From: Lysobacterales bacterium
GTDB lineage: Bacteria > Pseudomonadota > Gammaproteobacteria > Steroidobacterales > Steroidobacteraceae
Assembly: GCA_003819815.1 (NCBI GenBank)
Contig: RPQJ01000024.1
Span: 1-37,296 of the forward strand
Direction: 5' to 3'
DNA: 37,296 bases
In this document: positions 15,110 to 35,262 of the stretch, one piece after another
Layout of the letters: the number at the start of each line of letters is the position of its first letter
Position numbering within the stretch: the first letter of the stretch is position 1
Translations under genes and position numbers: made by a program
Notes under the pieces: generated by a model
Database searches by the model: none
What the model was told of the DNA's origin: nothing
What the model saw: the letters and a program-made list of their open reading frames with translations, nothing else

Positions 15110-15919
15110 TCACCCGAACGTGCGGCAGAGCATCCGCGCAGCGACGATCGTGAGGAACACGCCAAAGGCCGCGCTCAGCCGGCGCCGGTCGAGGCTGTGC
15201 GCGAGTCGCGCACCCCACGGTGCCGCGATCACCGTCCCCACCGCGATCAGCGCGAAGCCGGTCAGGTTGACGAGGCCGACCGTCCCGGACGGCACCGGGA
15301 CGACCGGCCGCGCGAGCAGGTAGCCCACGGTCCCGGGTATCGCGATCGCGAGTCCAAGCAGGTTCGACGTGCCGACCGCGCGGTGCACGGGCTGGCTGCA
15401 GAGCGTCAGCACGGGCACGCTCAGCGTGCCGCCGCCGATTCCCATCATGCTCGAGACCAGACCGATGCCGGCGGGCAGCGTGCGTCCCAGCGGCCCGCGC
15501 GGCACGGACGGTGCGAGCACCTTGCCGTCGAGCGGCAGGATCATCTTGATCGCAGCCATCGCCGCGACCACGCCGAAGAGCCCGGTCAGGACGTGCGCAG
15601 GGGCCCGGCTGGCGAGCAGGCTGCCCGCCAGGGCGCCCGCAGCGACGGCAGGCAGCCACATCTTCGCGACGTCGAGGTCGACCGCCCCGCGCCGGTGATG
15701 CGCACGGGCGGACGCGATCGAGGTCGGCACGATCGTCGCGAGCGACGTGGCCACCGCGATCGGCATCCGTACCGAAGGATCGACGCCGAGGAATCCGAGC
15801 ATGGCCTCGAGCACCGGGACGATGACGATGCCGCCGCCGACCCCGAGCAGGCCCGAAATGGTCCCGGCGACGAGTCCGGTGCCGAGCGCCGCGAGCGCGA
15901 CTTCGATCCAGCTATCCAA
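15110..15919 (-). CDS. Sulfite exporter TauE/SafE family permease
   Basis: TTG start at 15919 overlapping the stop codon region of the OPT gene; GLVAGTISGLLGVGGGIVIVPVLEAML and SSMMGIGGGTLSVPVL repeats typical of TauE/SafE. Confidence 0.85.
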   Translation of the reverse strand: MDSWIEVALAALGTGLVAGTISGLLGVGGGIVIVPVLEAMLGFLGVDPSVRMPIAVATSLATIVPTSIASARAHHRRGAVDLDVAKMWLPAVAAGALAGSLLASRAPAHVLTGLFGVVAAMAAIKMILPLDGKVLAPSVPRGPLGRTLPAGIGLVSSMMGIGGGTLSVPVLTLCSQPVHRAVGTSNLLGLAIAIPGTVGYLLARPVVPVPSGTVGLVNLTGFALIAVGTVIAAPWGARLAHSLDRRRLSAAFGVFLTIVAARMLCRTFG

Positions 15920-17819
15920 GCGTCGTTCGCCCGCCGCTGCGGCCGCCGCGCAGCAGGAATGCACACACCGCGCCCGCGACGAAGAGCGCGACCACCTCGC
16001 CGGCGAGACCGCCGAGCCGCGGATCCATCGATTTCGGCGCGAGACCGGCGGCGACGAGCCCCGCCACCGCGACGCCCGCCAGGCCCTCGCCCGCGACGAG
16101 TCCCGACGCCGCGAGGATGCCCGGATCGCTCTCGCCCTCGGACAACGGACGGCGGTCGCGCTCGACGAGCGCGCGCACGCAGCCGCCCACGTAGAGCGGC
16201 GCCATCGTCGCGAGCGGCAGGTAGACGCCGATCGCGAACGCGAGGCCCGACACGCCGCACAGCATCGCGCCGATCGCGAGACCGGCACCCGTCAGCACGA
16301 GGTCCCACGGCAGCGCGCCCGAGAGCACGCCCTCGATGATCGTCTTCATGAGCGTGGCCTGTGGCGCCGGAATCTCCCGCGAACCGAACTCGTAGGCCTC
16401 GCCGAGCAGCAGCACCGTGGCCGCCACGGCCCAGCACGCGAACGCCGCGCCGATCAGTTGCCCGAGCTGCTGGCGGGCGGGAGTGGCGCCGACCAGCCAG
16501 CCCGTCTTCAGGTCCTGCGAAATGTCGCCCGCCTTGCTCGCGGCCACCGCGACGATCGTGCCGACGGTCAGTACGCCGGCCCGCGCATCGGGGCCCACCC
16601 AGCCGGCCGCGGCGAACACCGACGCGGTGCCGAGCAGCGTGACGAGTGCGATGCCCGAGGTGGGTTGCGACGAGACGCCGACGATACCGACGATGCGCGC
16701 GGCGACGGTGACGAACAGCACGCCGAACACGCCGACGCCGGCCGCGAGCACGGCGCGCTGCATCGGGTCCATGTTGCCGGCGAACACGCCCGGCACGAAG
16801 GCGGCCGTCAGTACGACGAGCGCGACGCCGCCGAGCACGAAGCCGCCAGGCAGGTCCCGGTCGGTGCGTTCGGGCGCGGTGCCGCCTTGTACACCGGAGC
16901 CCTTCATGCCGCGTGCGACGGAGACGAATGCCCCGGCCATCGTCGGCAGGCCGCGCAGCACGGTCAGGATGCCGGCCGTCGCGACGGCGCCGGCGCCGAT
17001 GTAGCGCACGTACTTCGACCAGATGTCGCCCGCGCTCATGTCCGCGACGAGGCGCGTCGTCTCGGGATACAGCGGCGTCGACATCGCGCCGCCCATCCAC
17101 GCGATCAGCGGCGTGATCGCGAGCGCCGAGATGATCGCGCCGGCTACGCAGACCGCGGACTGCCGGTACCCGAGGATGTAGCCCACGCCGATCAGCGCCG
17201 GGGCGATTTCGAGCGCGACCTCTGCCTTCGGCAGCACGGGGATCGCGGCGCTCACCTCGCCCGGCAGCAGGTAGACGAGCGAGATCGCGAGCTTGACCGC
17301 GGCGCCCACGGCCATGCCCCGGAAGATCCAGGCGCTCGCGCTCCTCGCGCTGCCGGACTCGCTCACGGTCGCGCGCAGCACCTCCGCGCAAGCGGTGCCC
17401 TCGGGATAGGGCAGCTCGTGGTGGGCCTGCACGATCAGCAGGCGCCGGAGCGGCACCATGGCCGCGATGCCGAGTACGGCGCCGAGCAGCGCGAGTGCGA
17501 CCACCTGCAGGTAGGGCGGCACGGCGCCCCAGAGGAAGAGCGCTGGTATCGTGAAGATCGTGCCCGTCGCGAGTGAGGTCGACGCGGATGCGATCGTCTG
17601 CGAAAGATTCGCCTCGAGGATCGTCCCGGGCGTGCGCATAAGGCTGAAGACGGCGACAGTCATCACCGCGGCCGGGATGGATGCGGAGACGGTCATGCCG
17701 ACCCGGAGCCCGAGGTAGGCGTTGGCGGCGCCGAAGACGATCCCGAGCGCGATGCCGACCGCGATCGCCTTCAGGGTGAATTCGGCGACCTCGCCTGGCA
17801 CTCGTTGCATGACGGACAT
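15912..17819 (-). CDS. OPT family oligopeptide transporter
   Basis: EFTLKAIAVGIALGIVFGAANAYLGLRVGMTVSASIPAAVMTVAVF; LPYPEGTACAEVLRA; multi-pass 635 aa protein. Confidence 0.93.
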   Translation of the reverse strand: MSVMQRVPGEVAEFTLKAIAVGIALGIVFGAANAYLGLRVGMTVSASIPAAVMTVAVFSLMRTPGTILEANLSQTIASASTSLATGTIFTIPALFLWGAVPPYLQVVALALLGAVLGIAAMVPLRRLLIVQAHHELPYPEGTACAEVLRATVSESGSARSASAWIFRGMAVGAAVKLAISLVYLLPGEVSAAIPVLPKAEVALEIAPALIGVGYILGYRQSAVCVAGAIISALAITPLIAWMGGAMSTPLYPETTRLVADMSAGDIWSKYVRYIGAGAVATAGILTVLRGLPTMAGAFVSVARGMKGSGVQGGTAPERTDRDLPGGFVLGGVALVVLTAAFVPGVFAGNMDPMQRAVLAAGVGVFGVLFVTVAARIVGIVGVSSQPTSGIALVTLLGTASVFAAAGWVGPDARAGVLTVGTIVAVAASKAGDISQDLKTGWLVGATPARQQLGQLIGAAFACWAVAATVLLLGEAYEFGSREIPAPQATLMKTIIEGVLSGALPWDLVLTGAGLAIGAMLCGVSGLAFAIGVYLPLATMAPLYVGGCVRALVERDRRPLSEGESDPGILAASGLVAGEGLAGVAVAGLVAAGLAPKSMDPRLGGLAGEVVALFVAGAVCAFLLRGGRSGGRTTLG

Positions 17820-17897
17820 GATGGCCCAGCCGGGAGCCGGAAAGAAACCGGCCCTCTCGGCGACGTCCGGCCGCGTCGATGCGATGATGGCGGCACC

Positions 17898-19232
17898 ATG
17901 GGATCAGGTCGCCTCCTTTCCCCGATACCGGGCCGGGCCCGCGCGCGTGCCGTGCGCGCGGCGTCGGCACTCGTGCTGCTGGCCGTGACGCAGTTGCCCG
18001 GAATCACGTCGGCAGGCGATTCGAGCGCGTCCGGCGCGGTCGTGCATCCCGCCTCGACCGCGGGCGGCGCGCCGGGACCGGTCGTCGCGATCGGCGGCGC
18101 CCTGCGCTACGACCACGCAGCGGTGTGGTCGCGCCTCGTCGCACTCGCGGGCGGGCCGGGCGCACGCTACGTCGTGGTCGCGACGGCATCGTCCGATCCG
18201 GCTGCCGTCGGGGCACGTGTCGTGGCAGCGCTCGCGACCCACGGAGCGTCGGCGGAGGCGCTGCCGGTCGCGCCGGAACTCGCGGGTACGGACGCGCAGC
18301 GCGCGGCCCGCGATCCGGAGATGGTCGAGCGGGTACGCAGGGCGCGGGGCGTCTTCTTCACCGGCGGCGCGCAGGAACGCATCGTCGACACGCTGCAGCC
18401 GGGCGGCGAGGCCACGCCGTTGCTCGACGCGATCCGCGAACTGCACGCCCGTGGCGGCGTGATCGCGGGAACCTCCGCGGGCGCGGCCGCGATGAGCGGC
18501 GTGATGTTCCGCGACGCGACCGACGTGATCGCCGTCATGAAAGGCTCGCTGCGGCCGGGTCGCGAAGTCGACGCCGGACTCGGCTTCACGGGCGAGGGAC
18601 TGCTGGTCGACCAGCACTTCCTGCGGCGCGGCCGCCTCGGGCGACTGCTGCCGCTGATGCTCGAGCGCGGCATGCGGTTCGGACTCGGCGTGGAAGAGGA
18701 CAGCGCCGCGATCGTCCACGCCAGCTCCATCGAGATCGTGGGCGCGGGCGGAGCGTTGTTCGTCGACCTCGTGCAGGCCTCGAGCGACCCGGCGTCGGGT
18801 GCGTTCAACATTTCGAACGCGCGCCTGAGCTTCCTCGGCGATGGCGATCGGCTCGACCTTCGCACCCGCGTCGTCACGCCTGCGCCCGTGCGTGACGGCG
18901 AGGGGCGCATCGATGCCGCCGCGCCCGGCTTCAAGCCGCACCACGAGCAGGCGCCCTACCTGCTCGACGTGCTCGGCGAGGGCGCAGTCCTGCGTGCGAT
19001 GACGATCGCCGTCGACGGTCCCGGCGAGGTCCGCGGGCTCGCGTACGATGCACGACCGGACGCGGCGCCACCGAACGACCTCGGCTTCGAGTTCCGCTTC
19101 CGTCGCGACGCGCTCACGGCAGGCTGGTACAGCTCGGCCTCGGGCACCGACGCCTACACGCTTGCGGGCGTGCGGCTCGACGTGGCACCCGTGCGGCTCG
19201 CGCGCCCGTTGTACGCGCCGTGGTCACGCTGA
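17898..19232 (+). CDS. Cyanophycinase (peptidase family S51), predicted exported (CphE-like)
   Basis: Putative signal peptide MGSGRLLSPIPGRARARAVRAASALVLLAVTQLPGITSAG; VVAIGGAL; GVFFTGGAQERIVDTL; nucleophile motif VIAGTSAGAAAMSGVM; GLGFTGEGLLVDQHFLRRGRLGRLLPLM. Confidence 0.88.
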   Translation: MGSGRLLSPIPGRARARAVRAASALVLLAVTQLPGITSAGDSSASGAVVHPASTAGGAPGPVVAIGGALRYDHAAVWSRLVALAGGPGARYVVVATASSDPAAVGARVVAALATHGASAEALPVAPELAGTDAQRAARDPEMVERVRRARGVFFTGGAQERIVDTLQPGGEATPLLDAIRELHARGGVIAGTSAGAAAMSGVMFRDATDVIAVMKGSLRPGREVDAGLGFTGEGLLVDQHFLRRGRLGRLLPLMLERGMRFGLGVEEDSAAIVHASSIEIVGAGGALFVDLVQASSDPASGAFNISNARLSFLGDGDRLDLRTRVVTPAPVRDGEGRIDAAAPGFKPHHEQAPYLLDVLGEGAVLRAMTIAVDGPGEVRGLAYDARPDAAPPNDLGFEFRFRRDALTAGWYSSASGTDAYTLAGVRLDVAPVRLARPLYAPWSR

Positions 19233-19262
19233 GCGGGCCGCCTCCACACTGAAGGGATCCCC

Positions 19263-20393
19263 ATGCTTGAACGACGCCACGAGCTGGTCTCCGCCACACC
19301 GGGCACGCGCCGCGAACTCCTGAGCCTCCACTACGGCACGCCCGGGACCGGCCCCAAGGCGCTGGTCCAGGCATCGCTGCACGCCGACGAAGTGCCCGGC
19401 CTTCTGGTCGCGCACCATCTGCGCGCGCGCCTCGCGGCGCTCGAGTCAGCCGGACGGATCCGCGGCGAAGTCGTGCTCGTGCCGTATGCGAATCCCGTGG
19501 GCCTCGGGCAGTGGGTGCTCGCGTCCCACGAGGGACGCTTCGATCTCGCGAGCGGCGAGAACTTCAACCGGCACTACGCGAATCTCACGCTGGCCGCGGC
19601 CGACCACCTCGCGCCGCTCGTCGAAAGCGGCGGCACCGTGTCCGTGCCTGCGGTGCGCGAGGCGCTGCGTGCCGCCGCGGCCGCACTGCCGGCGCCGACG
19701 GAGCTCGCGAGCCTGCGCCGCGAACTGCTCGGGCTCGCGATCGACGCCGATCTCGTGCTCGACCTGCACTGCGACAACGAGGCCGTGCTGCACCTCTACA
19801 CGGCCACCTGGCTGTGGCCGGATGTCGAGCCGCTCGCGCGCCTGACCGGCAGTCGGGCGGTGCTGCTGGCCGACGAGTCGGGCGAGGAACCCTTCGACGA
19901 GGCCTGCTCGAGCGCGTGGCCACGGCTCGCCGCGGAACTCTCGCGGCGTGCGGGCCGCGCCATCGAATTGCCGCCGGCCTGCGTGTCGGTCACGGTCGAA
20001 CTGCGGGGCGAGCGCGACGTCGAGCACGGGCTGGCCACCGTCGATGCCGACGCGATCGTTCGATACCTCGTGGCGCGCGGGCACGTCGCCGGCGATGCGC
20101 CCGTGCTGCCGGACCTGCAGTGCGAGCCGACGCCGCTCGCCGGCTCGATACCGCTCGTGGCGCCGCACGGCGGCGTGCTCGTCCACTGCTGCCGGCTCGG
20201 ATCCGACGTGCGTCGCGGCGACCGGGTCGCAGAGATCGTGGATCCCTCGACCGGCGTCGTCACCGCGCTTGCAAGCCCGGTCGACGGCGTCTGCTACGCG
20301 AGGGAGAGCCGTCGGTTCGTACCCTCGGGCACGCGCGTGGCCAAGATCGCCGGCCGCGAACGGCTGCGCAGCGGCAACCTGCTGTCGGACTGA
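19263..20393 (+). CDS. Succinylglutamate desuccinylase/aspartoacylase (AstE/AspA) family Zn-hydrolase
   Basis: LVQASLHADEVPGLLVAHHL (HxxE zinc motif); VPYANPVGLGQ; ENFNRHY; ADLVLDLHCDNEAVLHLYT (third zinc His); SVTVELRGE (catalytic Glu region). Confidence 0.88.
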   Translation: MLERRHELVSATPGTRRELLSLHYGTPGTGPKALVQASLHADEVPGLLVAHHLRARLAALESAGRIRGEVVLVPYANPVGLGQWVLASHEGRFDLASGENFNRHYANLTLAAADHLAPLVESGGTVSVPAVREALRAAAAALPAPTELASLRRELLGLAIDADLVLDLHCDNEAVLHLYTATWLWPDVEPLARLTGSRAVLLADESGEEPFDEACSSAWPRLAAELSRRAGRAIELPPACVSVTVELRGERDVEHGLATVDADAIVRYLVARGHVAGDAPVLPDLQCEPTPLAGSIPLVAPHGGVLVHCCRLGSDVRRGDRVAEIVDPSTGVVTALASPVDGVCYARESRRFVPSGTRVAKIAGRERLRSGNLLSD

Positions 20394-20432
20394 ACGGCCG
20401 GGCCCACCCCATGCGGGAGGCGGCCCGCCGGC

Positions 20433-20912
20433 TCACAGCTTGAACGTCGAGAGCAGCAGGCTGGTCTCCGTACTCGAGACACCGTCGAGACGACGCAGCC
20501 GCCCCAGCACGCCGTCGAATGCCTCGAGCGTGTCGGCGCGCAGTTCGGCCACGATGTCCCAGCGGCCGTTCGTGCTGTGCAGCGCGGTCACCGCAGGATC
20601 GCCACGCAGGGCCTCGATCACGGACTCAATGCGGTTGCCTTCGACCGCGATCGTCGTGAGCGCGCGCACGCGCTGCTCCTCGACCTGGGGCCTGAGCCGC
20701 ACGGTATAGCCGACGATCGTGCCGTGCGCCTCGAGTCGCGCCATGCGGTTCTGGACCGTACCGCGGGAGACGCCGAGTGCTTCCGCGAGCGACGCGACCG
20801 TGGCGCGCGCGTCGTTTCGCAGCAGCGCGATGAGGCGCAGGTCGACGTCATCGACCGTCGAGCGCACGCCGGGCGGCCGTCCGGGACTCGTCTTTTTTGA
20901 TCGATTAGTCAT
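20433..20912 (-). CDS. Lrp/AsnC family transcriptional regulator
   Basis: DLRLIALLRNDARATVASLAEALGVSRGTVQNRMARLEAHGTIVGYTVRL HTH plus AsnC ligand-binding domain. Confidence 0.94.
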   Translation of the reverse strand: MTNRSKKTSPGRPPGVRSTVDDVDLRLIALLRNDARATVASLAEALGVSRGTVQNRMARLEAHGTIVGYTVRLRPQVEEQRVRALTTIAVEGNRIESVIEALRGDPAVTALHSTNGRWDIVAELRADTLEAFDGVLGRLRRLDGVSSTETSLLLSTFKL

Positions 20913-20960
20913 ATGAGAATGTCATTATGATTCAAAAATCGAGCAAATCGAGCGTTTGTC
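20905..20960. promoter_or_regulatory. AT-rich regulatory region between lrp-like and ornithine cyclodeaminase genes
   Basis: Two short palindromes tcatatga (20909-20916) and tcattatga (20922-20930) plus a tandem direct repeat aaatcgagc-aaatcgagc (20936-20953). Confidence 0.45.
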
Positions 20961-21068
20961 TGTCTTTTTTCTGGCCGGACCCGTCGTGAATACTGGGCCT
21001 CACAAACCGCCGGCCGGGCCCCCGGGCTCCGGCACGGCCCATACGGTTGCGACAGGAGGGATGAGGCC

Positions 21069-22130
21069 ATGGTCGACTTCGTGGGTATCGAGCGCGTCCG
21101 CGAGCTCGTCGAGCGGACCGGCACGGCTGCGTTCATCGAGCTGCTGGCGGCCGAGATCGAATCCGACTTCCGGCGCTGGGCGGAGTTCGACAAGTCGCCC
21201 CGGCACGCCGTGCATTCGCCCGTCGGCGTGATCGAGCTGATGCCGATCAGCGACGGCAGGCTGTACTCGTTCAAGTACGTCAACGGGCATCCCAGGAACA
21301 CCGCCCAGGGACTGCTCACGGTGACCGCCTTCGGCGTGCTCGCCGCCGTCTCCACGGGTTATCCGCTGCTCCTGTCCGAGCTCACCGTGACGACTGCACT
21401 GCGCACTGCGGCGATGTCGCTGCTCGCCGCCCGCTGGATGGCCCGCCGCGACAGTCGCGTGATGGCGCTCATCGGCAACGGCGCGCAGAGCGAGTTCCAG
21501 TCGATCGCGTTTCACGGGTTCGGCGTTCGCGAGCTGAGGCTCCACGACGTGGACCCGGCCGCGACCGCGAAGCTCGAGCGCAATCTCGCGGCGCTCTCGC
21601 TCGACGGGCTCCGCGTCGTGCGCTGCAGCTCGGCGGCCGAAGCGGCGCGCGGTGCCGACATCGTCACGACCGTCACGGCCGACAAGCGCAACGCGATCAT
21701 CCTGACGCCGGAAATGATCGAGCCCGGCATGCACCTGAACGCCGTCGGCGGCGACTGCCCAGGCAAGACCGAACTCCACGGCGACATCCTGCGACGCCCT
21801 GACGCGCGCGTGGTCGTCGAGTACGAGCCGCAGTCGCGCATCGAGGGCGAGGTGCAGCAGATGCCCGCGGACTTCCCCGTCGTCGAGTTCAGCGACGTCG
21901 TTTCCGGACGCGCGGCCGGCCGCGCGACCGATCGTGAGGTCACGATCTTCGACTCGGTCGGTTTCGCGCTCGAGGACTTCTCCGCGCTCAGGCTCGTGCA
22001 CCGGCTGAACCGCGCCGATCGCGCCCGGCCGACCGTGGACCTCGTCCCCGACCTCGCGGATCCCAAGGATCTCTACTCCGTGCTTGCGCCGCGTGCGGCC
22101 GGTTCCGTGAAACTGAGGGCCTCGGCGTGA
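21069..22130 (+). CDS. ocd: Ornithine cyclodeaminase
   Basis: YSFKYVNGHPRNTAQGLLTVTAFGVL; TGYPLLLSELTVTTALRTAAMSLLAA; MALIGNGAQSEFQSIAF. Confidence 0.94.
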   Translation: MVDFVGIERVRELVERTGTAAFIELLAAEIESDFRRWAEFDKSPRHAVHSPVGVIELMPISDGRLYSFKYVNGHPRNTAQGLLTVTAFGVLAAVSTGYPLLLSELTVTTALRTAAMSLLAARWMARRDSRVMALIGNGAQSEFQSIAFHGFGVRELRLHDVDPAATAKLERNLAALSLDGLRVVRCSSAAEAARGADIVTTVTADKRNAIILTPEMIEPGMHLNAVGGDCPGKTELHGDILRRPDARVVVEYEPQSRIEGEVQQMPADFPVVEFSDVVSGRAAGRATDREVTIFDSVGFALEDFSALRLVHRLNRADRARPTVDLVPDLADPKDLYSVLAPRAAGSVKLRASA

Positions 22131-23113
22131 GCCGCCGGTCCGTGCCGGTCGCGAGCCTCATCGGCGCGCCGACCGACGTCGGTGCGAGCGAGCGGGGCGC
22201 CTCGATGGGGCCGGAGGCGCTGCGCGTGGCCGGCATCCAGCGCCGCCTCGAGGCCCACGGCCTCAAGGTGATCGACCGCGGCAACCTCGCCGGTCCGGGC
22301 AACCCGTGGCTCCCGCCCGCGGAAGGCTATCGGCACCTGGCCGAGGTCGTGCACTGGAACCGCGCGGTCCACGATGCCGTCCACGCGGAGCTGGGCCGCA
22401 ACCGGCTGCCCATCGTGCTGGGCGGCGACCACTCGCTCAGCGTCGGCTCGATCAGCGCCGTCGCGCGCCACTGTCGCCGCACGGGACGCAAGCTGCGCGT
22501 GCTGTGGCTCGACGCGCACGCGGACTTCAACACCTCCGAGCTTTCGCCGAGCGGCAACCTGCACGGCATGCCGCTCGCGTGCCTGTGCGGCTTCGGTCCC
22601 GCGGAGCTGCTGGCGGTCGGCGGCGAATCGCCCGCGATCTCGCCGGACTGCGTGCGACAGATCGGCATCCGCAGCGTCGACGCGGGCGAGCGCCGCTTCG
22701 TCCACGAGCAGAACCTCGACGTCTTCGACATGCGCTACGTCGACGAGATGGGCATGCGGCAGACGATGGAGGACGCGCTCGCCGGCCTCGACGCCGACAC
22801 GCACCTGCACGTGAGCTTCGACGTCGACTTCCTCGACCCCGAGATCGCGCCCGGCGTCGGCACGACGGTGCCAGGCGGCCCGACCTACCGGGAAGCACAG
22901 CTATGCATGGAGATGATCGCCGACACGGGCCGGCTCGCGTCGCTCGACATCGTGGAGCTGAACCCGGCGTTCGACGTCCGCAACCGCACTGCGGCGCTGG
23001 CGGTCGATCTGGTGGAATCGCTGTTCGGGAAGAGCACGCTCGTGCGACGGCCCGGGCGCGCGGTGCCGACGGCGCGGCGGGAAGCGGCGGGGGCGAGGCC
23101 GGTGCGCCACTGA
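22127..23113 (+). CDS. rocF: Arginase
   Basis: GTG start overlapping ocd stop; metal-ligand motifs VLGGDHSLSVGSI, LWLDAHADFNT, SFDVDFLDPEIAPGVGTTVPGG. Confidence 0.95.
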   Translation: MSRRSVPVASLIGAPTDVGASERGASMGPEALRVAGIQRRLEAHGLKVIDRGNLAGPGNPWLPPAEGYRHLAEVVHWNRAVHDAVHAELGRNRLPIVLGGDHSLSVGSISAVARHCRRTGRKLRVLWLDAHADFNTSELSPSGNLHGMPLACLCGFGPAELLAVGGESPAISPDCVRQIGIRSVDAGERRFVHEQNLDVFDMRYVDEMGMRQTMEDALAGLDADTHLHVSFDVDFLDPEIAPGVGTTVPGGPTYREAQLCMEMIADTGRLASLDIVELNPAFDVRNRTAALAVDLVESLFGKSTLVRRPGRAVPTARREAAGARPVRH

Positions 23114-23133
23114 TGGGCGCGGGCCGCTTCGTC

Positions 23134-23139
23134 TAGAAT
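23134..23139 (+). promoter_or_regulatory. Possible -10 element (tagaat) upstream of alaX
   Basis: TAGAAT about 30 bp upstream of the GTG start; no convincing -35 seen. Confidence 0.25.
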
Positions 23140-23168
23140 CACGGTCCCGCGACGACGCCGAGGCCGCC

Positions 23169-23876
23169 GTGACCGCCACCGTAGCCGTTTACCAGCAGGA
23201 CGCCTATGCGCGCTCCTGCGAGGCGAGCGTCCTCGAGAGCGGGCCGGACGGAGTCGTGCTCGATCGCACGGTGTTCTATCCGCTCGGCGGCGGACAGCCC
23301 GGCGACACGGGCCTGCTCGAGTCCGGCGACGGACGGACGTGGCGCGTCGTCGATACGCGCAAGGGCGAAGGCGGTCGCGTGCTTCACCTGCTCGAGCCGG
23401 ACACCGCGCCTCCCGAGACGGGACTCGCCCTGACCCCGGCTCTCGACTGGGACCGGCGCTACGCGCACATGCGCATGCACAGCGCCCTGCATCTGCTCGG
23501 CGCCGTGCTGCGCTACGGGGTGACGGGCGGGCAGATCGCGGCCGACAAGGGGCGGCTCGATTTCGACACGCAGGACGAGATCGATCGCGATCGGGTCACC
23601 GCGGCCGTCAACGCGCTCGTCGCGGCGAACCTCACGGTGGGCTCGCGCTGGATCACCGACGAGGAACTCGACCGCCAGCCCGAACTCGTGCGGACGATGT
23701 CCGTGCAGCCGCCGCGCGGCGTGGGCCGTATCCGGCTGCTCGACATCGACGGCGTCGACCTGCAGCCCTGCGGCGGCACTCACGTGAAGGCGACGGGCGA
23801 AATCGGCCCCGTCGTCGTCACGAAGGTCGAGAACAAGGGCAAGCGCAACAAGCGCGTCTACATCGCCTTCGCCTGA
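23169..23876 (+). CDS. alaX: Alanyl-tRNA editing protein AlaX-like
   Basis: FYPLGGGQPGDTG; HMRMHSALHLLGAVL; LQPCGGTHVKATGEIGPVVVTKVENKGKRNKRVYIAF. Confidence 0.93.
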   Translation: MTATVAVYQQDAYARSCEASVLESGPDGVVLDRTVFYPLGGGQPGDTGLLESGDGRTWRVVDTRKGEGGRVLHLLEPDTAPPETGLALTPALDWDRRYAHMRMHSALHLLGAVLRYGVTGGQIAADKGRLDFDTQDEIDRDRVTAAVNALVAANLTVGSRWITDEELDRQPELVRTMSVQPPRGVGRIRLLDIDGVDLQPCGGTHVKATGEIGPVVVTKVENKGKRNKRVYIAFA

Positions 23877-26975: not shown

Positions 26976-27974
26976 ATGGACCCGGCAGTTGCCCGACTCG
27001 TGGAGCCGATCGACGGAGAGCATCCGTGCGGGGTCGATCTCGAGGACACGCCTTTGCTCGCGTCGTTCGACGCCTACCGCGTGTTCGGCCAGATGACGGC
27101 CCCACCGGGCGACATCGACTGGCGCGAGATCCGTGACAAGGCGCTCGAGGGACTGGAGCAGAGCAGGGACCTGAGATTGCTCTCCCACCTCGCCGCGGCG
27201 TCGCTGCGCACGGATGGACTGCAGCGCTTCTGCGACGTCCTGCACGTGGCGGCACGCTGGCTAGACGACCACCCGGACCACGTATTTCCGCGTGTCGACG
27301 AGGACGCGATCCTGCGCAAGAACGCGCTCAACGGCTTCTCCGACCGCATGGCGATCGTGGACGCCGTGCGCCGGCAACCCTTCGTGATGCACCCCCAGCT
27401 CGGCGCGTTCGCACTGCGTCATTTCGAGATCGCTTCGGGCAAGCTCGCCCCCGCCGAGGCCGACGGCGAGCCGCCTACCGAGGCCCAGCTGAGCGCCACC
27501 CTCGAGGGCGCCGACGGCGAGAAGCTCGTGGCGATGGAGGCGAGCCTCGCTGCTGCGGTGGAGGGCCTGCGGCGCGTCGAGTCCTCGATGCGCAACGCGC
27601 ACGGCGCCGAGGGCACGCCGGAGTTCGAGCCGCTGCTCGGCCCGCTGGTGCAGATCCACAAGCTGCTCGCGGACCAGCTCGCGGCGCGCGCGGCCAGCGC
27701 CGCGCCGGTCGAAGGCGCCGAGGCCGGTGCCGGCGGCGAGCCGGGCGCCGCAGCCATCATCGGCGTGGGCAGCATCCGCTCGCGCGACGACGCGATGCGC
27801 GCGCTCGATGCCGTCGCCGAGTTCTTTCGCAAGAACGAGCCGTCGAGCCCGCTGCCGATGATGGTCGAGCGTGCGAGGCGCCTGATCGGCAAGGACTTTC
27901 TCGAGCTGCTGTCGGACCTAGCGCCCGACGGCCTCGACCAGGCGAAGCACGTCGGCGGAGTTCGCGACGAATAG
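26976..27974 (+). CDS. tssA: Type VI secretion system protein TssA
   Basis: LVEPIDGEHPCGVDLEDTPLLASFDAYRVFGQ; ImpA_N-like region; RSRDDAMRALDAVAEFFRKNEPSSPLPMMVERARRLIGKDFLELL. Confidence 0.93.
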   Translation: MDPAVARLVEPIDGEHPCGVDLEDTPLLASFDAYRVFGQMTAPPGDIDWREIRDKALEGLEQSRDLRLLSHLAAASLRTDGLQRFCDVLHVAARWLDDHPDHVFPRVDEDAILRKNALNGFSDRMAIVDAVRRQPFVMHPQLGAFALRHFEIASGKLAPAEADGEPPTEAQLSATLEGADGEKLVAMEASLAAAVEGLRRVESSMRNAHGAEGTPEFEPLLGPLVQIHKLLADQLAARAASAAPVEGAEAGAGGEPGAAAIIGVGSIRSRDDAMRALDAVAEFFRKNEPSSPLPMMVERARRLIGKDFLELLSDLAPDGLDQAKHVGGVRDE

Positions 27975-28022
27975 CGTGGCCGGCTCCGGCCGGTCATTCG
28001 GAAACCTTCAGGAGGAGTAACC

Positions 28023-28538
28023 GTGTCTAAGCAGAGCAGTCAGAAGTTCATCGGCCGCAACCGTGCGCCGCGCGTGCAGATCGAGTACAACGTCGAGCTG
28101 TACGGCGCGCAGAAGAAGGTGCAGGTCCCGTTCGTGATGGGCGTCATGGCCGACCTGAGCGGAGACGCGAAGGAGCCCCTCCCTGGGGTCGACGAGCGCA
28201 AGTTCCTGAACGTCGACGTCGACAACTTCGACGAGCGCATGAAGTCGATGAAGCCCCGCGTCGCCTTCAGCGTGCCGAACACGCTCACCGGCGAGGGCAA
28301 CATGCAGGTCGACATCACGTTCGAGAGCATGGACGACTTCTCGCCGGCCGCGGTCGCACGCAAGGTCGACGCGCTCAACCAGCTGCTCGAGGCGCGCCAG
28401 CAGCTCTCGAACCTGATCACGTACATGGACGGCAAGGCCGGCGCCGAGGAGCTGGTGGCCAAGGTGCTGAACGACCCGGCGCTGCTCAAGACGCTCGCTT
28501 CCCAGCCCAAGCCGGAAGGCTCGGGCGACGGCAACTAA
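28023..28538 (+). CDS. tssB: Type VI secretion system contractile sheath small subunit TssB
   Basis: GTG start with strong aggagg SD; SSQKFIGRNRAPRVQIEYNVELYGAQKKVQVPFVMGVMADLSGD. Confidence 0.96.
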   Translation: MSKQSSQKFIGRNRAPRVQIEYNVELYGAQKKVQVPFVMGVMADLSGDAKEPLPGVDERKFLNVDVDNFDERMKSMKPRVAFSVPNTLTGEGNMQVDITFESMDDFSPAAVARKVDALNQLLEARQQLSNLITYMDGKAGAEELVAKVLNDPALLKTLASQPKPEGSGDGN

Positions 28539-28557
28539 TCCAACTTCGGGGACGACC

Positions 28558-30048
28558 ATGGCTGACGCAAGACAGGAACAGGCGGCACAGGGCGCAGTGC
28601 AGGAGGCCGACCAGTTCGCGGCACTGCTGCAGAGGGAATTCAAGCCCAAGACGGACCGGGCCCGGGCCGAGGTGGAGAACGCGGTGCGCACGCTCGCCGA
28701 GCAGGCGCTGCGCGAGACGACCGTCGTCTCGGACGACGTGATCGGCACGATCAAGGCGATCATCGCCGAGATCGACAAGAAGCTCTCGGACCAGGTGAAC
28801 GCGATCATGCACCAGGAGCGCTTCCAGCAGGTGGAGAGCGCCTGGCGCGGGCTGCATCACCTGGTGAGCAACTCCGAAACCGACGAGATGCTCAAGATCC
28901 GCGTCATGAACATCTCGAAGAAGGACCTGGCCAAGACCCTGAAGAAGTACAAGGGCACGGCATGGGACCAGAGCCCGCTCTTCAAGAAGCTGTACGAGCA
29001 GGAATACGGGCAGCTCGGCGGCGAGCCCTACGGTTGCCTGGTGGGCGACTACTACTTCGACCACACCCCGGGCGACGTCGAACTGCTCGGGCAGATGTCG
29101 CAGATCGCCGCCGCGGCACACGCCCCGTTCATCGCCGCTGCGTCGCCGACGGTGATGGGTATGGACACCTGGCAGGAGCTCGCGAACCCGCGCGACCTCG
29201 GCAAGATCTTCTCCTCTCCCGAGTATGCGGGCTGGCGCTCGCTGCGCGAGTCGGACGACGCGAAGTACATCGGCCTCGCGATGCCGCGGTTCCTTGCACG
29301 CGTGCCGTACGGCTCCAAGACCAACCCAGTCGAGGAGTTCGACTTCGAGGAGGAGACCGCGGGCGGCGACCACACGAAGTACACGTGGGCCAACGCCGCC
29401 TACACGATGGCGGTCAACATCAACCGGGCCTTCAAGCAGTACGGCTGGTGCACGGCGATCCGCGGCGTCGAGTCCGGCGGCGCGGTCGACGGGCTGCCCG
29501 TGCACACGTTCCCGTCCGACGACGGCGGCGTGGACATGAAGTGCCCGACCGAGATCGCGATCAGCGACCGCCGGGAGGCGGAGCTGGCCAACAGCGGCTT
29601 CATGCCGCTGATCCACCGCAAGAACACGGACGTCGCGGCGTTCATCGGCGCGCAATCGCTGCAGAAGCCGGCGGAATACACGGACGCGGATGCGAGCGCC
29701 AACGCACGTCTTTCCGCTCGCCTGCCGTACCTGTTCGCAAGCTGCCGTTTCGCGCACTACCTGAAGTGCATGGTCCGCGACAAGGTGGGCTCGTTCAAGG
29801 AGCGGGCCGACATGGAGCGCTTCCTGTCGGACTGGATCAAGGACTACGTGCTCGGCAATCCCGGCAGCGCCGGCGACGAGCTCAAGGCACGCAAGCCGCT
29901 CGCGGGTGCCGAGGTCAAGGTCACCGAGATCGAGGGCAACCCGGGCTACTACGCTGCGTCCTTTCACCTGCGGCCGCATTACCAGCTCGAGGGCGTGAAC
30001 GTCACGATGAGCCTGGTCTCGCGGCTGCCCTCGGAGAGGGGCGGCTAG
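28558..30048 (+). CDS. tssC: Type VI secretion system contractile sheath large subunit TssC
   Basis: FQQVESAWRGLHHLVSNSETDEMLKIRVMNISKKDL; FDFEEE; NANARLSARLPYLFASCRFAHYLKCMVRDKVGSF-type C-terminus. Confidence 0.97.
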   Translation: MADARQEQAAQGAVQEADQFAALLQREFKPKTDRARAEVENAVRTLAEQALRETTVVSDDVIGTIKAIIAEIDKKLSDQVNAIMHQERFQQVESAWRGLHHLVSNSETDEMLKIRVMNISKKDLAKTLKKYKGTAWDQSPLFKKLYEQEYGQLGGEPYGCLVGDYYFDHTPGDVELLGQMSQIAAAAHAPFIAAASPTVMGMDTWQELANPRDLGKIFSSPEYAGWRSLRESDDAKYIGLAMPRFLARVPYGSKTNPVEEFDFEEETAGGDHTKYTWANAAYTMAVNINRAFKQYGWCTAIRGVESGGAVDGLPVHTFPSDDGGVDMKCPTEIAISDRREAELANSGFMPLIHRKNTDVAAFIGAQSLQKPAEYTDADASANARLSARLPYLFASCRFAHYLKCMVRDKVGSFKERADMERFLSDWIKDYVLGNPGSAGDELKARKPLAGAEVKVTEIEGNPGYYAASFHLRPHYQLEGVNVTMSLVSRLPSERGG

Positions 30049-30062
30049 GAGTTTCGGATGGA

Positions 30063-30092
30063 CCGACCCCGGGCGCGACCGCCCGGGGTCGG
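30063..30092 (+). other. Perfect 13-bp stem / 4-nt loop hairpin between tssC and hcp
   Basis: ccgaccccgggcg (30063-30075) - cgac - cgcccggggtcgg (30080-30092). Confidence 0.8.
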
Positions 30093-30132
30093 CGGACTGG
30101 CGAATGCGACGGCATGAACGAGGAGAATTCCA

Positions 30133-30618
30133 ATGGCTGTTGACATGTTCATCAAGATCGACGGGATCAAGGGCGAGTCGAAGGACTCCAAGCACAAGGG
30201 GGAGATCGACGTCCTCGCCTGGAGCTGGGGCCTGTCGAATTCGGGCACCTTCCACATGGGCGGCGGCGGCGGCGCCGGCAAGGCCAGCATGCAGGACCTG
30301 AGCTTCACCAAGTACGTCGACGCGGGCTCCGCCGACCTGCAGCTGAGCTGCGCGACCGGCAAGCACATCGCGAAGGCCAATCTCGTGGTCCGCAAGGCGG
30401 GCGACAAGCCGCTCGAGTACATCCTCATCGAGCTGACGGAGTGCCTGATCACCTCCGTCAGCACCGGCGGTTCGGGCGGCGAGGATCGGCTCACGGAGAA
30501 CGTGACGATCAACTTCGAGGAAGTGCACTTCACCTACTGGACGCAGGACGACAAGACCGGCGCCAAGGGTGAATCGTCCGAGTTCAAGTACAACATCGCC
30601 GAGAACACCAAGAAGTGA
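30133..30618 (+). CDS. hcp: Hcp family type VI secretion tube protein
   Basis: MAVDMFIKIDGIKGESKDSKHKGEIDVLAWSWGLSNSGTFH; DLSFTKYVDAGSADLQLSCATGKHI. Confidence 0.97.
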   Translation: MAVDMFIKIDGIKGESKDSKHKGEIDVLAWSWGLSNSGTFHMGGGGGAGKASMQDLSFTKYVDAGSADLQLSCATGKHIAKANLVVRKAGDKPLEYILIELTECLITSVSTGGSGGEDRLTENVTINFEEVHFTYWTQDDKTGAKGESSEFKYNIAENTKK

Positions 30619-30631
30619 GTTCCGCCGGACA

Positions 30632-30658
30632 CGGCGGCGCCCTCCAGGGGCGCCGCCG
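30632..30658 (+). other. Perfect 11-bp stem / 5-nt loop hairpin directly after the hcp stop
   Basis: cggcggcgccc (30632-30642) - tccag - gggcgccgccg (30648-30658); no following T-tract, so not a canonical intrinsic terminator. Confidence 0.75.
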
Positions 30659-30695
30659 CCGGCCCGTGGCCGCACCATACAGTCGGGTGGCGTAA

Positions 30696-31520
30696 ATGAC
30701 GCAGCAGAGCGGCTCGAGCCTGCGGGAAACCGCGGAAGACTGTTTCCGTCGCGGCGACCTGCCCGGTTGCCTGCGGTCGCTGCAGGACTCGGTACGCCAG
30801 AGTCCCGCGGATGCGAAGCTCAGGATCTTTCTCGCCCAGGTGCTTATGGTGCAGGGCGACTGGGGCCGGGCGCTGAACCAGCTCAAGGTGATCGGCGAGA
30901 TGGAGGCGAGCGCGCTGCCGATGATGCACGCCTACAGCGCCGCCATTCAGTGCGAGCGCCTGCGGGCCGAGGTCTTCGCAGGCACCCGCAGCCCGCTGCT
31001 GTTCGGCGAGCCGCTGCCGTGGATCGCCCTGCAGATGCAGAGCGTCGCGCTGCTTGGCAGCGGACGCGAGGCCGAGGCGGCGGAGTTGCGCGCCCAGGCG
31101 TTCGAAGCGGCCCCCGCGACCGCCGGCACCCTGAACGGCGAGCCCTTCGAGTGGATCGCGGACGCGGACTCGCGCCTCGGCCCGATGCTCGAGGTGCTGC
31201 TGAACGAGGCGTATTACTGGATCCCGTTCGAACGGATCGCGAGCATACGGGTCGAGCCTCCGAGCGATGCCCGCGACCTCGTGTGGCTGCCCGCGGAGTT
31301 CCGCTGGAGCAACGGCGGCGAGGCCATGGGCCTGATCCCGGTGCGTTATCCCGGTTCGGAGTCGAGCGACGACGCGGCGATCCGCCTCGCACGCAAGACG
31401 GAATGGCGTTCGATCGGGCCGGATGCCTACCAGGGGCTCGGCCAGCGGATCCTGACCACCGACGGCCCGGAGGTCGGGCTGCTGGAGCTGAGGGAACTGC
31501 AACTGCAGCCAGCCTCTTGA
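30696..31520 (+). CDS. tagJ: TagJ/ImpE family type VI secretion accessory protein
   Basis: TPR-like N-terminus FRRGDLPGCLRSLQDSVRQSPADAKLRIFLAQVLMVQGDWGRALNQLKV; FEWIADADSRLGPMLEVLLNEAYYWIPFERI; RKTEWR. Confidence 0.92.
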   Translation: MTQQSGSSLRETAEDCFRRGDLPGCLRSLQDSVRQSPADAKLRIFLAQVLMVQGDWGRALNQLKVIGEMEASALPMMHAYSAAIQCERLRAEVFAGTRSPLLFGEPLPWIALQMQSVALLGSGREAEAAELRAQAFEAAPATAGTLNGEPFEWIADADSRLGPMLEVLLNEAYYWIPFERIASIRVEPPSDARDLVWLPAEFRWSNGGEAMGLIPVRYPGSESSDDAAIRLARKTEWRSIGPDAYQGLGQRILTTDGPEVGLLELRELQLQPAS

Positions 31521-31560
31521 CCAGACCTTACTGGCCGGGGTCGGGCGATCCGGAGCATCG

Positions 31561-32337
31561 ATGGTCGAGTTGAGCCTCAAGGACCGACTGCAGCCGGCGC
31601 TCCTCGACCGGCTGGTCGACGACGAACGCGTGGTGACGGTCTACCAGGTCGCGCTGGACCCGGCACTGCTGCGCGAACACGGCCTGACCGAGCCGGACGT
31701 CGAACGCGAGCTCGGCTTGCAAGGCCTGCAGCGCGTGCGCGGCTCCGCGGACGGCCCGCAGGGCGCCCCGGTTCACGTCTATCGGTCGACGGGCGGACCG
31801 TCGCTGCAGGCCTCGTCGCGGCAATTGCGGGTGCGTTCGCCGAGGGACCCGGCCGGCGTACCGCTGGCGAACCTCGGACGCGTCGAGGCCGGAACCGCCG
31901 TGAACGCGCAGCTCGAATCTCCGGAGCGCCGTGCCATGTCGATGAACCGGCTGCGCGAGGCCGTGCTGCGCGACCTGCGCTGGCTCTTCAACGCGAGCGG
32001 GATCGACGACGTCGTGGATCTCGCCCGTTATCCCGAAGTGCGCCGCTCGGTGCTCAACTACGGCCTGCGATCGCTGGCCGGAAAGCCCGTGAGCTCGGTC
32101 GACCCGGTCGAGGTTTCGCGTCGCATCCGCGACGCGATCGCGTACTTCGAGCCACGCCTGAGCGGCATCCGCGTCACGCCGGAAGTGCAGGACGACAAGG
32201 TGGAGGGCATGACGCTCTCGTTCCTAGTGGAGGCGGAGCTGTGGGGGCAACCGGTGGCGCAGCACGTCTCGCTGCGGACGAGCATCGACGTCGAGACCGG
32301 CGACGTCGCGGTCGCCGACCGGGCCGCACGAGCCTGA
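31561..32337 (+). CDS. tssE: Type VI secretion baseplate subunit TssE, with internal insertion
   Basis: LKDRLQPALLDRLVDDE N-terminus; then RLREAVLRDLRWLFNASGIDDVVDLARYPEVRRSVLNYGLRSLAG; ELWGQPVAQHVSLRTSIDVETGDVAV. Confidence 0.9.
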   Translation: MVELSLKDRLQPALLDRLVDDERVVTVYQVALDPALLREHGLTEPDVERELGLQGLQRVRGSADGPQGAPVHVYRSTGGPSLQASSRQLRVRSPRDPAGVPLANLGRVEAGTAVNAQLESPERRAMSMNRLREAVLRDLRWLFNASGIDDVVDLARYPEVRRSVLNYGLRSLAGKPVSSVDPVEVSRRIRDAIAYFEPRLSGIRVTPEVQDDKVEGMTLSFLVEAELWGQPVAQHVSLRTSIDVETGDVAVADRAARA

Positions 32338-32344
32338 TCCCGCG

Positions 32345-34216
32345 ATGGATACCCGGCTCCTCCAGTATTACAACCGCGAGCTGCAGTTCATCCGCGAGAT
32401 GGGCGCAGAGTTCGCCGAGGCGTACCCGCGTATCGCGGCCCGGCTCGGCATGGACGGCATCGACTGCGCCGATCCGTACGTCGAGCGGCTGATCGAATCG
32501 TTCGCGTTCCTGGCGGCGCGAGTGCAGCTCAAGCTCGACGCTCGGCATCCGGATTTCACCCAGCACCTGCTGGAGATGGTCTATCCCTCGTTCTTGGCGC
32601 CGGTGCCCTCCGCGGCCGTCGTCGAGCTCGTGCCGACCCCGGCGGAGAGCAGCCTCAAGGAAGGTTTCAGGGTGCGGCGCGGCACGCCCCTGCGTGCCCA
32701 GGTCGGCGGCTCGGGCGGAACGCCCTGCGAGTACCGCACGGCCCACGACGTCGTGCTCTGGCCGCTCTCCGTGACCGGCGCACGCTACGTCGTGGGCACG
32801 AGCTCCTTCGCCTCGCCGGCGCTGCGACTCAATCCGCGCTGCCGCGGTGCGATCCGGCTCGACCTGCGCACCGACGAGGGCATCGCGCTCAGCGACCTGC
32901 CGCTCGATTCCCTGACCGTGTTCGTGTACGCCACGGCCGATCACGCGGGCAAGATCTACGAGCAAGTGCTCGCGAACGGCGTCGGCGTCGTGGTGCGTTC
33001 CAAGGCGTCGGGCCGCGCCGTGGCGCTGCCGGCGTCGGCGATACGCCCCGTCGGCTTCGACGACGAGGAAGCCCTGCTGCCGCTCGCTCCCCGCGGATTC
33101 GAAGGCTACAGGCTGCTCCAGGAATACTTCGCGTTCCCCGACCGGTTCCTGTTCTTCGCCGTCGACGGCCTGCGTGCGGCACTCGCGGATCTGGATGGAG
33201 GGGAGTTCGAGCTGCTGCTGCTCGTCGACCGTTGCCTGCCGGATCTCGAGAACGCGCTCGACGAGTCCCAGTTCCGCCTGAATTGCACGCCCGCGGTGAA
33301 CCTGTTCCCGCGCGCGCTGGATCGCATCCACCTCTCGGCACACGAGACCGAGCACCACGTCGTGCCCGACCTGAGCCGACCGATGGACTTCGAAGTCTAC
33401 GCCATCGACCGGATGGTCGGGATCGGCTCCGGCACTGACGCGCTGCTCGAGATCGCGCCGCTCTACTCGAATCATCACCGCAGCAGCGAGACCGACACGC
33501 GGGCTTACTACACCGTGCAGCGGCGGCCCCGCCTCGCGTCGCAGCGGCAGCAGCGCAGCGGCGCGCGGACAAGCTATCTCGGCTCCGAGTGCTACGTCTC
33601 GATCGTCGACTCACGCCAGCGCGAGCTGTCCGGCGAGATCCGACAACTCGACGTGAGCGCCCGCTGCACCAACCGCGACCTGCCGTTCGGCCTGAGCTTC
33701 GGCAAGTCGCGGCTCGAGTTCGATCTCGACGGCGGGGCCCCCGTGCAGACCGTCCGCTGCCTCGCCGGCCCGACGCAGCCGCGCCCGTCGTCGGCATTCG
33801 GCGACACGGCCTGGCACCTCATCGGGCACCTGACCCTCAATTACCTCTCGCTTTGCGATACCGACCCGGACAAGGGCGCCGAAATGCTTCGGCACCTTCT
33901 CGGGCTCCACGCCGACCCGAACGACCCCGTCGCCCACCGCCAGGTCGACGGCGTGCGCCGCGTCGCGCACCAACCCGTCGTGCGCCGCGTCCCGGGCGGT
34001 GGCCCGATCACCTACGGCCGCGGCCTGCAGGTGACGATCACGGTCGACGACTCGGCGTTCGAAGGCGCCGGCGCGCTGCGACTCGGCACCGTACTGCAGC
34101 GCTTCCTGTCCCGGCACGTCTCGATCAACTCGTTCGTCGAAGCAAGACTCCACTCCGCAGCGCGCGGTGAGATCAAGCAATGGCCGGCCCGGACAGGCAC
34201 TCGGCACAGCCTCTAG
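32345..34216 (+). CDS. tssF: Type VI secretion baseplate subunit TssF
   Basis: LLQYYNRELQFIREMGAEFAEAYPRIAARLGMDGIDCADPYVERLIESFAFLAARVQLKLD; GRGLQVTITVDDSAFEGAGALRLGTVLQRFLSRHVSINSFVE. Confidence 0.97.
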   Translation: MDTRLLQYYNRELQFIREMGAEFAEAYPRIAARLGMDGIDCADPYVERLIESFAFLAARVQLKLDARHPDFTQHLLEMVYPSFLAPVPSAAVVELVPTPAESSLKEGFRVRRGTPLRAQVGGSGGTPCEYRTAHDVVLWPLSVTGARYVVGTSSFASPALRLNPRCRGAIRLDLRTDEGIALSDLPLDSLTVFVYATADHAGKIYEQVLANGVGVVVRSKASGRAVALPASAIRPVGFDDEEALLPLAPRGFEGYRLLQEYFAFPDRFLFFAVDGLRAALADLDGGEFELLLLVDRCLPDLENALDESQFRLNCTPAVNLFPRALDRIHLSAHETEHHVVPDLSRPMDFEVYAIDRMVGIGSGTDALLEIAPLYSNHHRSSETDTRAYYTVQRRPRLASQRQQRSGARTSYLGSECYVSIVDSRQRELSGEIRQLDVSARCTNRDLPFGLSFGKSRLEFDLDGGAPVQTVRCLAGPTQPRPSSAFGDTAWHLIGHLTLNYLSLCDTDPDKGAEMLRHLLGLHADPNDPVAHRQVDGVRRVAHQPVVRRVPGGGPITYGRGLQVTITVDDSAFEGAGALRLGTVLQRFLSRHVSINSFVEARLHSAARGEIKQWPARTGTRHSL

Positions 34217-35205
34217 CGGCGGTCGAGCAGCTCGGGCGGGAACCGTACCGCTTCAGCCTGTTCGCCGCCCTGCGCGTGCTCGAGCGCGCCGATCCTGCGC
34301 GACCGCGACTCGGCGAGGCGCGCCGGGCGGCCGACGACCGGGTGCGCATCGAGCAGCTGCCTCACCTCACGTTCGCGCCGAGCGACGTCGCGACGTTTCA
34401 GGCGACCAGCGGCGGAAAGCTCCGGATCGCCCAGTTCGGCTTCGGCGTCTTCGGTCCGAACGGCGCGCTGCCGTCGCACCTTTCGGAGTACGCGTTCGAG
34501 CGCCGGCGGCACCACGACGACGGCGCCGTCAGCGATTTCGTCAACCTCTTCCAGCATCGCATGACGGCGCTGTTCTATCGCGCATGGGCCGAAGCCGACC
34601 CGGTCGCGAGCCACTCCCGGCCCGACGACGACGATTTCGCCACGTATCTCGGAGCGCTCGCGGGGCTCGCGGGCGCGCCCGCGCTCGGTCGCGACTCGGT
34701 GAGCGACTACGCAAAGCTCTTTCGAGCCGGCCTGCTGGCCTCGGCCTCGCGCCCCGCCGACGGCCTCGAGACCCTGCTCTCCGACTACTTCGGCCAGCGC
34801 GTCGCGGTCCGCGAGTTCGTCGGCGGCTGGCTTCGAGTGCCGGACGGCCTGCGCACACGCCTCGGCGAGACGGACGGGTACGCGACGCTCGGCCGGGACG
34901 CGACGCTCGGCACGTCCTCGTGGCAGCGGCAGAGCCGCTTCGAGCTCGCGATCGGGCCGCTGCGGTTCGAGGAGTTCCTGCAGTTCCTGCCCGGGTCCCG
35001 CGCGCTGCGCGCGCTCGGGGACCTGGTCCGGTTGTACACGTCCGGAGAGTGGTCGTGGCAGGTGCGCCTGCTGGTCGACGACGGCGACGCGCCGGGCGTC
35101 TCGCTCGGCAAGGTCGGGCGCCTCGGCTGGACGAGCTGGCTCGGCGGCAAGCGCGGCATCGCGTCCGACGTGGTGCTGCAGGAAGGACACGCGGCGGCCG
35201 CCTGA
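34180..35205 (+). CDS. tssG: Type VI secretion baseplate subunit TssG
   Basis: LGREPYRFSLFAALRVLERADPARPRLGEARRAADDRVRI; FGVFGPNGALPSHLSEYAFER; start overlaps tssF by 37 nt. Confidence 0.94.
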   Translation: MAGPDRHSAQPLAAVEQLGREPYRFSLFAALRVLERADPARPRLGEARRAADDRVRIEQLPHLTFAPSDVATFQATSGGKLRIAQFGFGVFGPNGALPSHLSEYAFERRRHHDDGAVSDFVNLFQHRMTALFYRAWAEADPVASHSRPDDDDFATYLGALAGLAGAPALGRDSVSDYAKLFRAGLLASASRPADGLETLLSDYFGQRVAVREFVGGWLRVPDGLRTRLGETDGYATLGRDATLGTSSWQRQSRFELAIGPLRFEEFLQFLPGSRALRALGDLVRLYTSGEWSWQVRLLVDDGDAPGVSLGKVGRLGWTSWLGGKRGIASDVVLQEGHAAAA

Positions 35206-35262
35206 AACGGCGGTTCGGAACCCATGGATTCGCAAGCCAAAGGCTAAAGGTGGAGAGGCAGC

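Follow-up and report, generated by a model that had tools for sequence, protein, structure and literature searches.

The window, i.e. the whole stretch of 37,296 nucleotides that was analysed, encodes a putative exported cyanophycinase, a predicted cyanophycin dipeptide hydrolase (beta-Asp-Arg hydrolase), CphZ, and enzymes of arginine catabolism. In brief, positions 15912-17819 (minus strand) encode an OPT-family oligopeptide transporter (TIGR00733, PF03169), divergent from an S51 family cyanophycinase, putatively of the exported CphE type, at 17805-19232 (plus strand; TIGR02069, PF03575 and alignment). The cphZ gene at 19263-20393 (plus strand), assigned by phmmer, Foldseek, alignments and a tree, is followed by an Lrp/AsnC-family regulator at 20433-20912 (minus strand; PF01037, PF13404), a homologue of which accompanies an ornithine cyclodeaminase-arginase pair at another CphZ locus, L074. 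The ornithine cyclodeaminase (OCD; ornithine to proline) is encoded at 21069-22130 (plus strand; NF005762, 526.9 bits against a cut-off of 350), and the arginase (arginine to ornithine and urea) at 22127-23113 (plus strand; TIGR01229, 289.8 bits against a cut-off of 227.6); these two genes share 4 bp. The cyanophycinase, regulator, ornithine cyclodeaminase and arginase fit a route from beta-Asp-Arg via arginine and ornithine to proline. By eye, the region 26976-37296 holds a type VI secretion-like cluster, with tssA-, tssB-, tssC-, hcp-, tssF- and tssG-like genes and a VgrG-like gene at the end.

The cyanophycinase scores above the NCBIfam cut-off (TIGR02069, 134.2 against 126.6 bits), and all its catalytic residues are in place: Ser in GTSAGA, His in DQHF and Glu in EED. 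Its likely start is the ATG at 17898, followed by a hydrophobic stretch that resembles a signal peptide by eye, and the protein thus looks exported. In an alignment inspected by eye, the cyanophycinase of locus L051 has a similar stretch, and the other cyanophycinase of the same genome as the window does not.

The sequence-only reading had placed an AstE/AspA-fold gene directly after the cyanophycinase, and this holds. The cphZ gene starts 30 bp after the cyanophycinase stop, which ends at 19232, and is preceded immediately by a purine-rich GAAGGGA. The reading frame is uninterrupted from ATG to TGA and encodes 376 aa, in which no signal peptide was seen. Pfam AstE_AspA_cat (PF24827) matches the product with 43 bits against a cut-off of 25. 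The motifs HADE (residues 40-43), DLHCD (167-171) and VTVELRGE (243-250) lie where that reading had put them, and NFNR is found at 100-103. The predicted Zn ligands are H40 (codon 19380), E43 (19389) and H169 (19767), and the predicted catalytic residue is E246 (19998); none of the four varies in alignments of 10 and of 35 homologues. Judged by these residues, the AstE/AspA-type Zn site with its catalytic Glu is complete. The family-specific invariant residues agree as well, except for residue 127, which is Ser here and Asn in at least 97% of the homologues.

A phmmer search of the PDB gave 8EIN and 8EIP as the top two matches, with 256 and 253 bits over residues 12-368 (E 7e-75); the next solved family follows at 70 bits (3FMC) and 68 bits (3LWU). 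A confident AlphaFold model (pLDDT 94.7) used with Foldseek again gave 8EIN/8EIP as best (E 2e-44, TM 0.90), with the next solved family at TM 0.82. The PDB sequence records name both entries only "Succinylglutamate desuccinylase". In Foldseek, their titles give "cyanophycin dipeptide hydrolase CphZ", with Acinetobacter baylyi as the source, for the wild type and for an E251A mutant in complex with a ligand whose name begins with "beta-" and which we take to be beta-Asp-Arg. The Glu changed to Ala in 8EIP aligns with E246 of the window protein. At about 40% identity, the A. baylyi enzyme is the nearest characterised protein. The two are homologous over their full length and have the fold, the Zn ligands, the catalytic Glu and the HADE, DLHxD and NFNR motifs in common; they differ in that the window gene has a putatively exported cyanophycinase and the arginase, OCD and Lrp genes as neighbours, with cphA1 on another contig.

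Based on these observations, we assign the gene product with high confidence to the CphZ-type cyanophycin dipeptide hydrolases. Hydrolysis of beta-Asp-Arg is a well-supported prediction for it, and we infer its own substrate from that of the family. The idea that an AstE/AspA-fold Zn enzyme next to a cyanophycinase could act on beta-Asp-Arg was correct, as such an enzyme is called CphZ both in the titles of the best matching structures and in the literature, but the proposed novelty was not: the family was crystallised and published in 2023 (Sharon et al., PNAS 2023, e2216547120; ref. 49 of PMC10206079, which describes CphZ in words). The window protein is an ordinary member of that family in a mildly unusual neighbourhood. 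The sequence-only reading is an independent confirmation that AstE/AspA-like genes beside cyanophycinase genes are CphZ.

In PMC10206079, the same reaction is ascribed to the isoaspartyl dipeptidases IadA and IaaA, which are promiscuous and unrelated to CphZ and to one another. The claim that neither was present stands for the genes annotated in the window and, for IadA, for the whole genome as assembled (an incomplete MAG, 86.8%, in 213 contigs), where no match was found. In the whole genome it does not extend to IaaA, as an IaaA-type gene is located on contig C84, with a second copy on the short contig C211. The proteins from these two contigs are identical, and the copies are probably an assembly duplicate or a strain variant.

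The genome also encodes cphA1, with another cphA-like (Mur ligase) gene after it (G000:C127:475-5039), and a cytosolic-type cyanophycinase at a contig end (G000:C75:235-975). In genomes of the same genus cphB adjoins cphA1 (e.g. G005:C80), and the pair was therefore probably split by a contig break in this assembly. Together, these two contigs hold a complete internal cyanophycin set that lies apart from the window locus and is kept in same-genus genomes. We compared eight genomes of the genus, mostly incomplete too: CphZ gave no match in any of them, all eight have cphA1, whole or as a large fragment, and six have an IaaA-type gene. A CphZ locus, the Steroidobacteraceae MAG record L051, is present in G027, a genome of the same family.

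These data bear on a variant compatible with the CphZ identity, namely that CphZ is the sole enzyme for the beta-Asp-Arg step of the cell's own cyanophycin store, a true replacement of IaaA or IadA. The genome does have cphA1 and lacks iadA, but we consider this unlikely given the IaaA-type gene here and in six of the eight relatives, the absence of CphZ from all eight despite their cphA1, and the apparent export of the adjacent cyanophycinase, the cytosolic-type one being encoded on another contig. With an IaaA-type gene, cphA1 and another cyanophycinase of the cytosolic type all encoded in this genome, CphZ is an addition to the known route. A non-orthologous replacement of the final step of cyanophycin degradation, as had been proposed, is thus valid for CphZ as a family and rejected for this genome. 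The two enzyme types coexist, and it follows that absence of iadA and iaaA is no precondition for CphZ.

Eighty relatives of the window CphZ were collected from named genomes; most belong to Burkholderiales or other Betaproteobacteria, and Pseudomonas and Methylobacteriaceae are also represented. Viral contigs gave no relatives. Within 8 kb of cphZ in the 80 homologues (tblastn probes, at least 60 bits), the neighbours included a substrate-binding protein in 60, an ABC ATPase in 52, a permease in 49 and a TonB receptor in 17. Genes for cyanophycinase (17), an AraC-type regulator (15) and arginine succinyltransferase, AstA (10), also recur. In locus L074, an Lrp-OCD-arginase group as in the window adjoins substrate-binding protein, permease, CphZ and ATPase genes, and its arginase is intact. 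A YfcC-like (ArcD-labelled) transporter is found near cphZ in eight of the 80. In L072, L093, L097, L110, L115, L118, L121 and L126, such a transporter adjoins cphZ in place of the ABC system, so that CphZ is linked to yet another kind of transporter.

In the tree, 3FMC and 3LWU fall outside the CphZ family (support 100), and the window protein groups with those of L047, L048, L051, L052, L065 and L076 (support 99). The branch of 8EIN is long and its exact position unsure. Loci of the aot type, with the order permease-CphZ-ATPase-ArgR (L033, L039, L041-L043), belong to the same family, and the group containing L041-L043 includes the window CphZ. AotO of Pseudomonas is reportedly a CphZ. The window protein is of the same subfamily as AotO of the Pseudomonas aot operons, but the neighbours examined include an OPT transporter and no genes of an aot-type ABC transporter. 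The cyanophycinase-linked members, 17 of 73 rows, are scattered over the tree with at least seven changes, and a clade of their own, suggested earlier as a check, is thereby rejected.

AstE succinylglutamate desuccinylase and aspartoacylase have the superfamily and the Zn chemistry in common with the window protein. A rival reading takes the protein for an AstE/AspA-superfamily desuccinylase or deacylase (acting on N-succinylglutamate, N-succinylarginine, N-acetyl-aspartate or, as DoeB/EutE, N-acetyl-diaminobutyrate) that lies beside a cyanophycinase by chance. It draws on Pfam naming the superfamily only and on AstA near L051, L065, L076 and other homologues, which points to succinylated arginine products in related pathways; we find it very improbable, as NCBIfam gave no AstE match and only DoeB far below its cut-off (22.3 against 402.7 bits), the solved succinylglutamate desuccinylase 1YW4 reaches TM 0.46 against 0.90 for CphZ, and L39, A41, P45, F101, D171 and A174 are common to the window protein and 8EIN and not to 3FMC or 3LWU.

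With the gene read as cphZ, the most likely role of the locus is scavenging of extracellular cyanophycin. In brief, the exported cyanophycinase would degrade foreign cyanophycin, and the beta-Asp-Arg dipeptide would enter the cell by uptake. Cytosolic CphZ would split it into Asp and Arg by means of water activated by Zn, E246 acting as the general base, and arginase and ornithine cyclodeaminase would convert Arg via ornithine to proline. The Lrp-type regulator may co-regulate the genes of the module. The cell's own store is probably served by the separate cphA1, cytosolic cphB and IaaA-type set elsewhere in the genome. This suggests a division of labour between a conserved cycle for the cell's own store and an optional module that deals with foreign cyanophycin.

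The OPT transporter, which takes the place of the aot-type ABC transporter beside cphZ and is the one mildly unusual point of the locus, is a candidate importer of the dipeptide. An OPT gene is also found near the CphB-CphZ pair in L051. In the same-genus genomes G003, G005, G007 and G032, which have no CphZ match, the OPT orthologues adjoin other genes (phospholipase D-like, glycerol kinase, DUF1343-like; named partly by eye), and OPT as an obligate partner of CphZ is unsupported. We tentatively suggest, as a rather doubtful possibility, that in this lineage OPT imports the beta-Asp-Arg released by the exported cyanophycinase. If so, the locus would be a scavenging unit of new composition (OPT, CphE, CphZ and arginase/OCD) in a cell that also has a complete internal cyanophycin cycle.

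Five genes (cyanophycinase, CphZ, Lrp, OCD and arginase) lie between OPT and an AlaX-like gene in the window (15912-23876). In the same-genus genome G003 the OPT and AlaX-like genes are approximately 2.4 kb apart with one phospholipase D-like gene between, which suggests that the interval holds a variable insert. The five-gene cassette is likely variable or acquired. It is unlikely that the contig is a contaminant, as its OPT gene shares 85% identity with those of two genomes of the genus, and its AlaX-like gene 72% with that of a third, in which OPT and AlaX are likewise near each other.

In other genomes, S51 cyanophycinase-like and IaaA-type (Asparaginase_2) domains are found in one protein. 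Such fused reading frames are encoded in G018 (L159:1172-3157, minus strand), G022 (L160:1201-3375, minus strand) and G010 (L161:1403-3580, minus strand), all of the same family, and in G128 of another family (G128:C11:138628-140523). A non-exhaustive literature search found no description of the fusion. Where inspected, the N-terminus is signal-peptide-like, and an exported two-step cyanophycin-degrading enzyme is possible. The fusion would couple the same two activities as cyanophycinase and CphZ by another route. In G187, the S51 cyanophycinase-like and IaaA-type proteins are encoded by adjacent separate genes.
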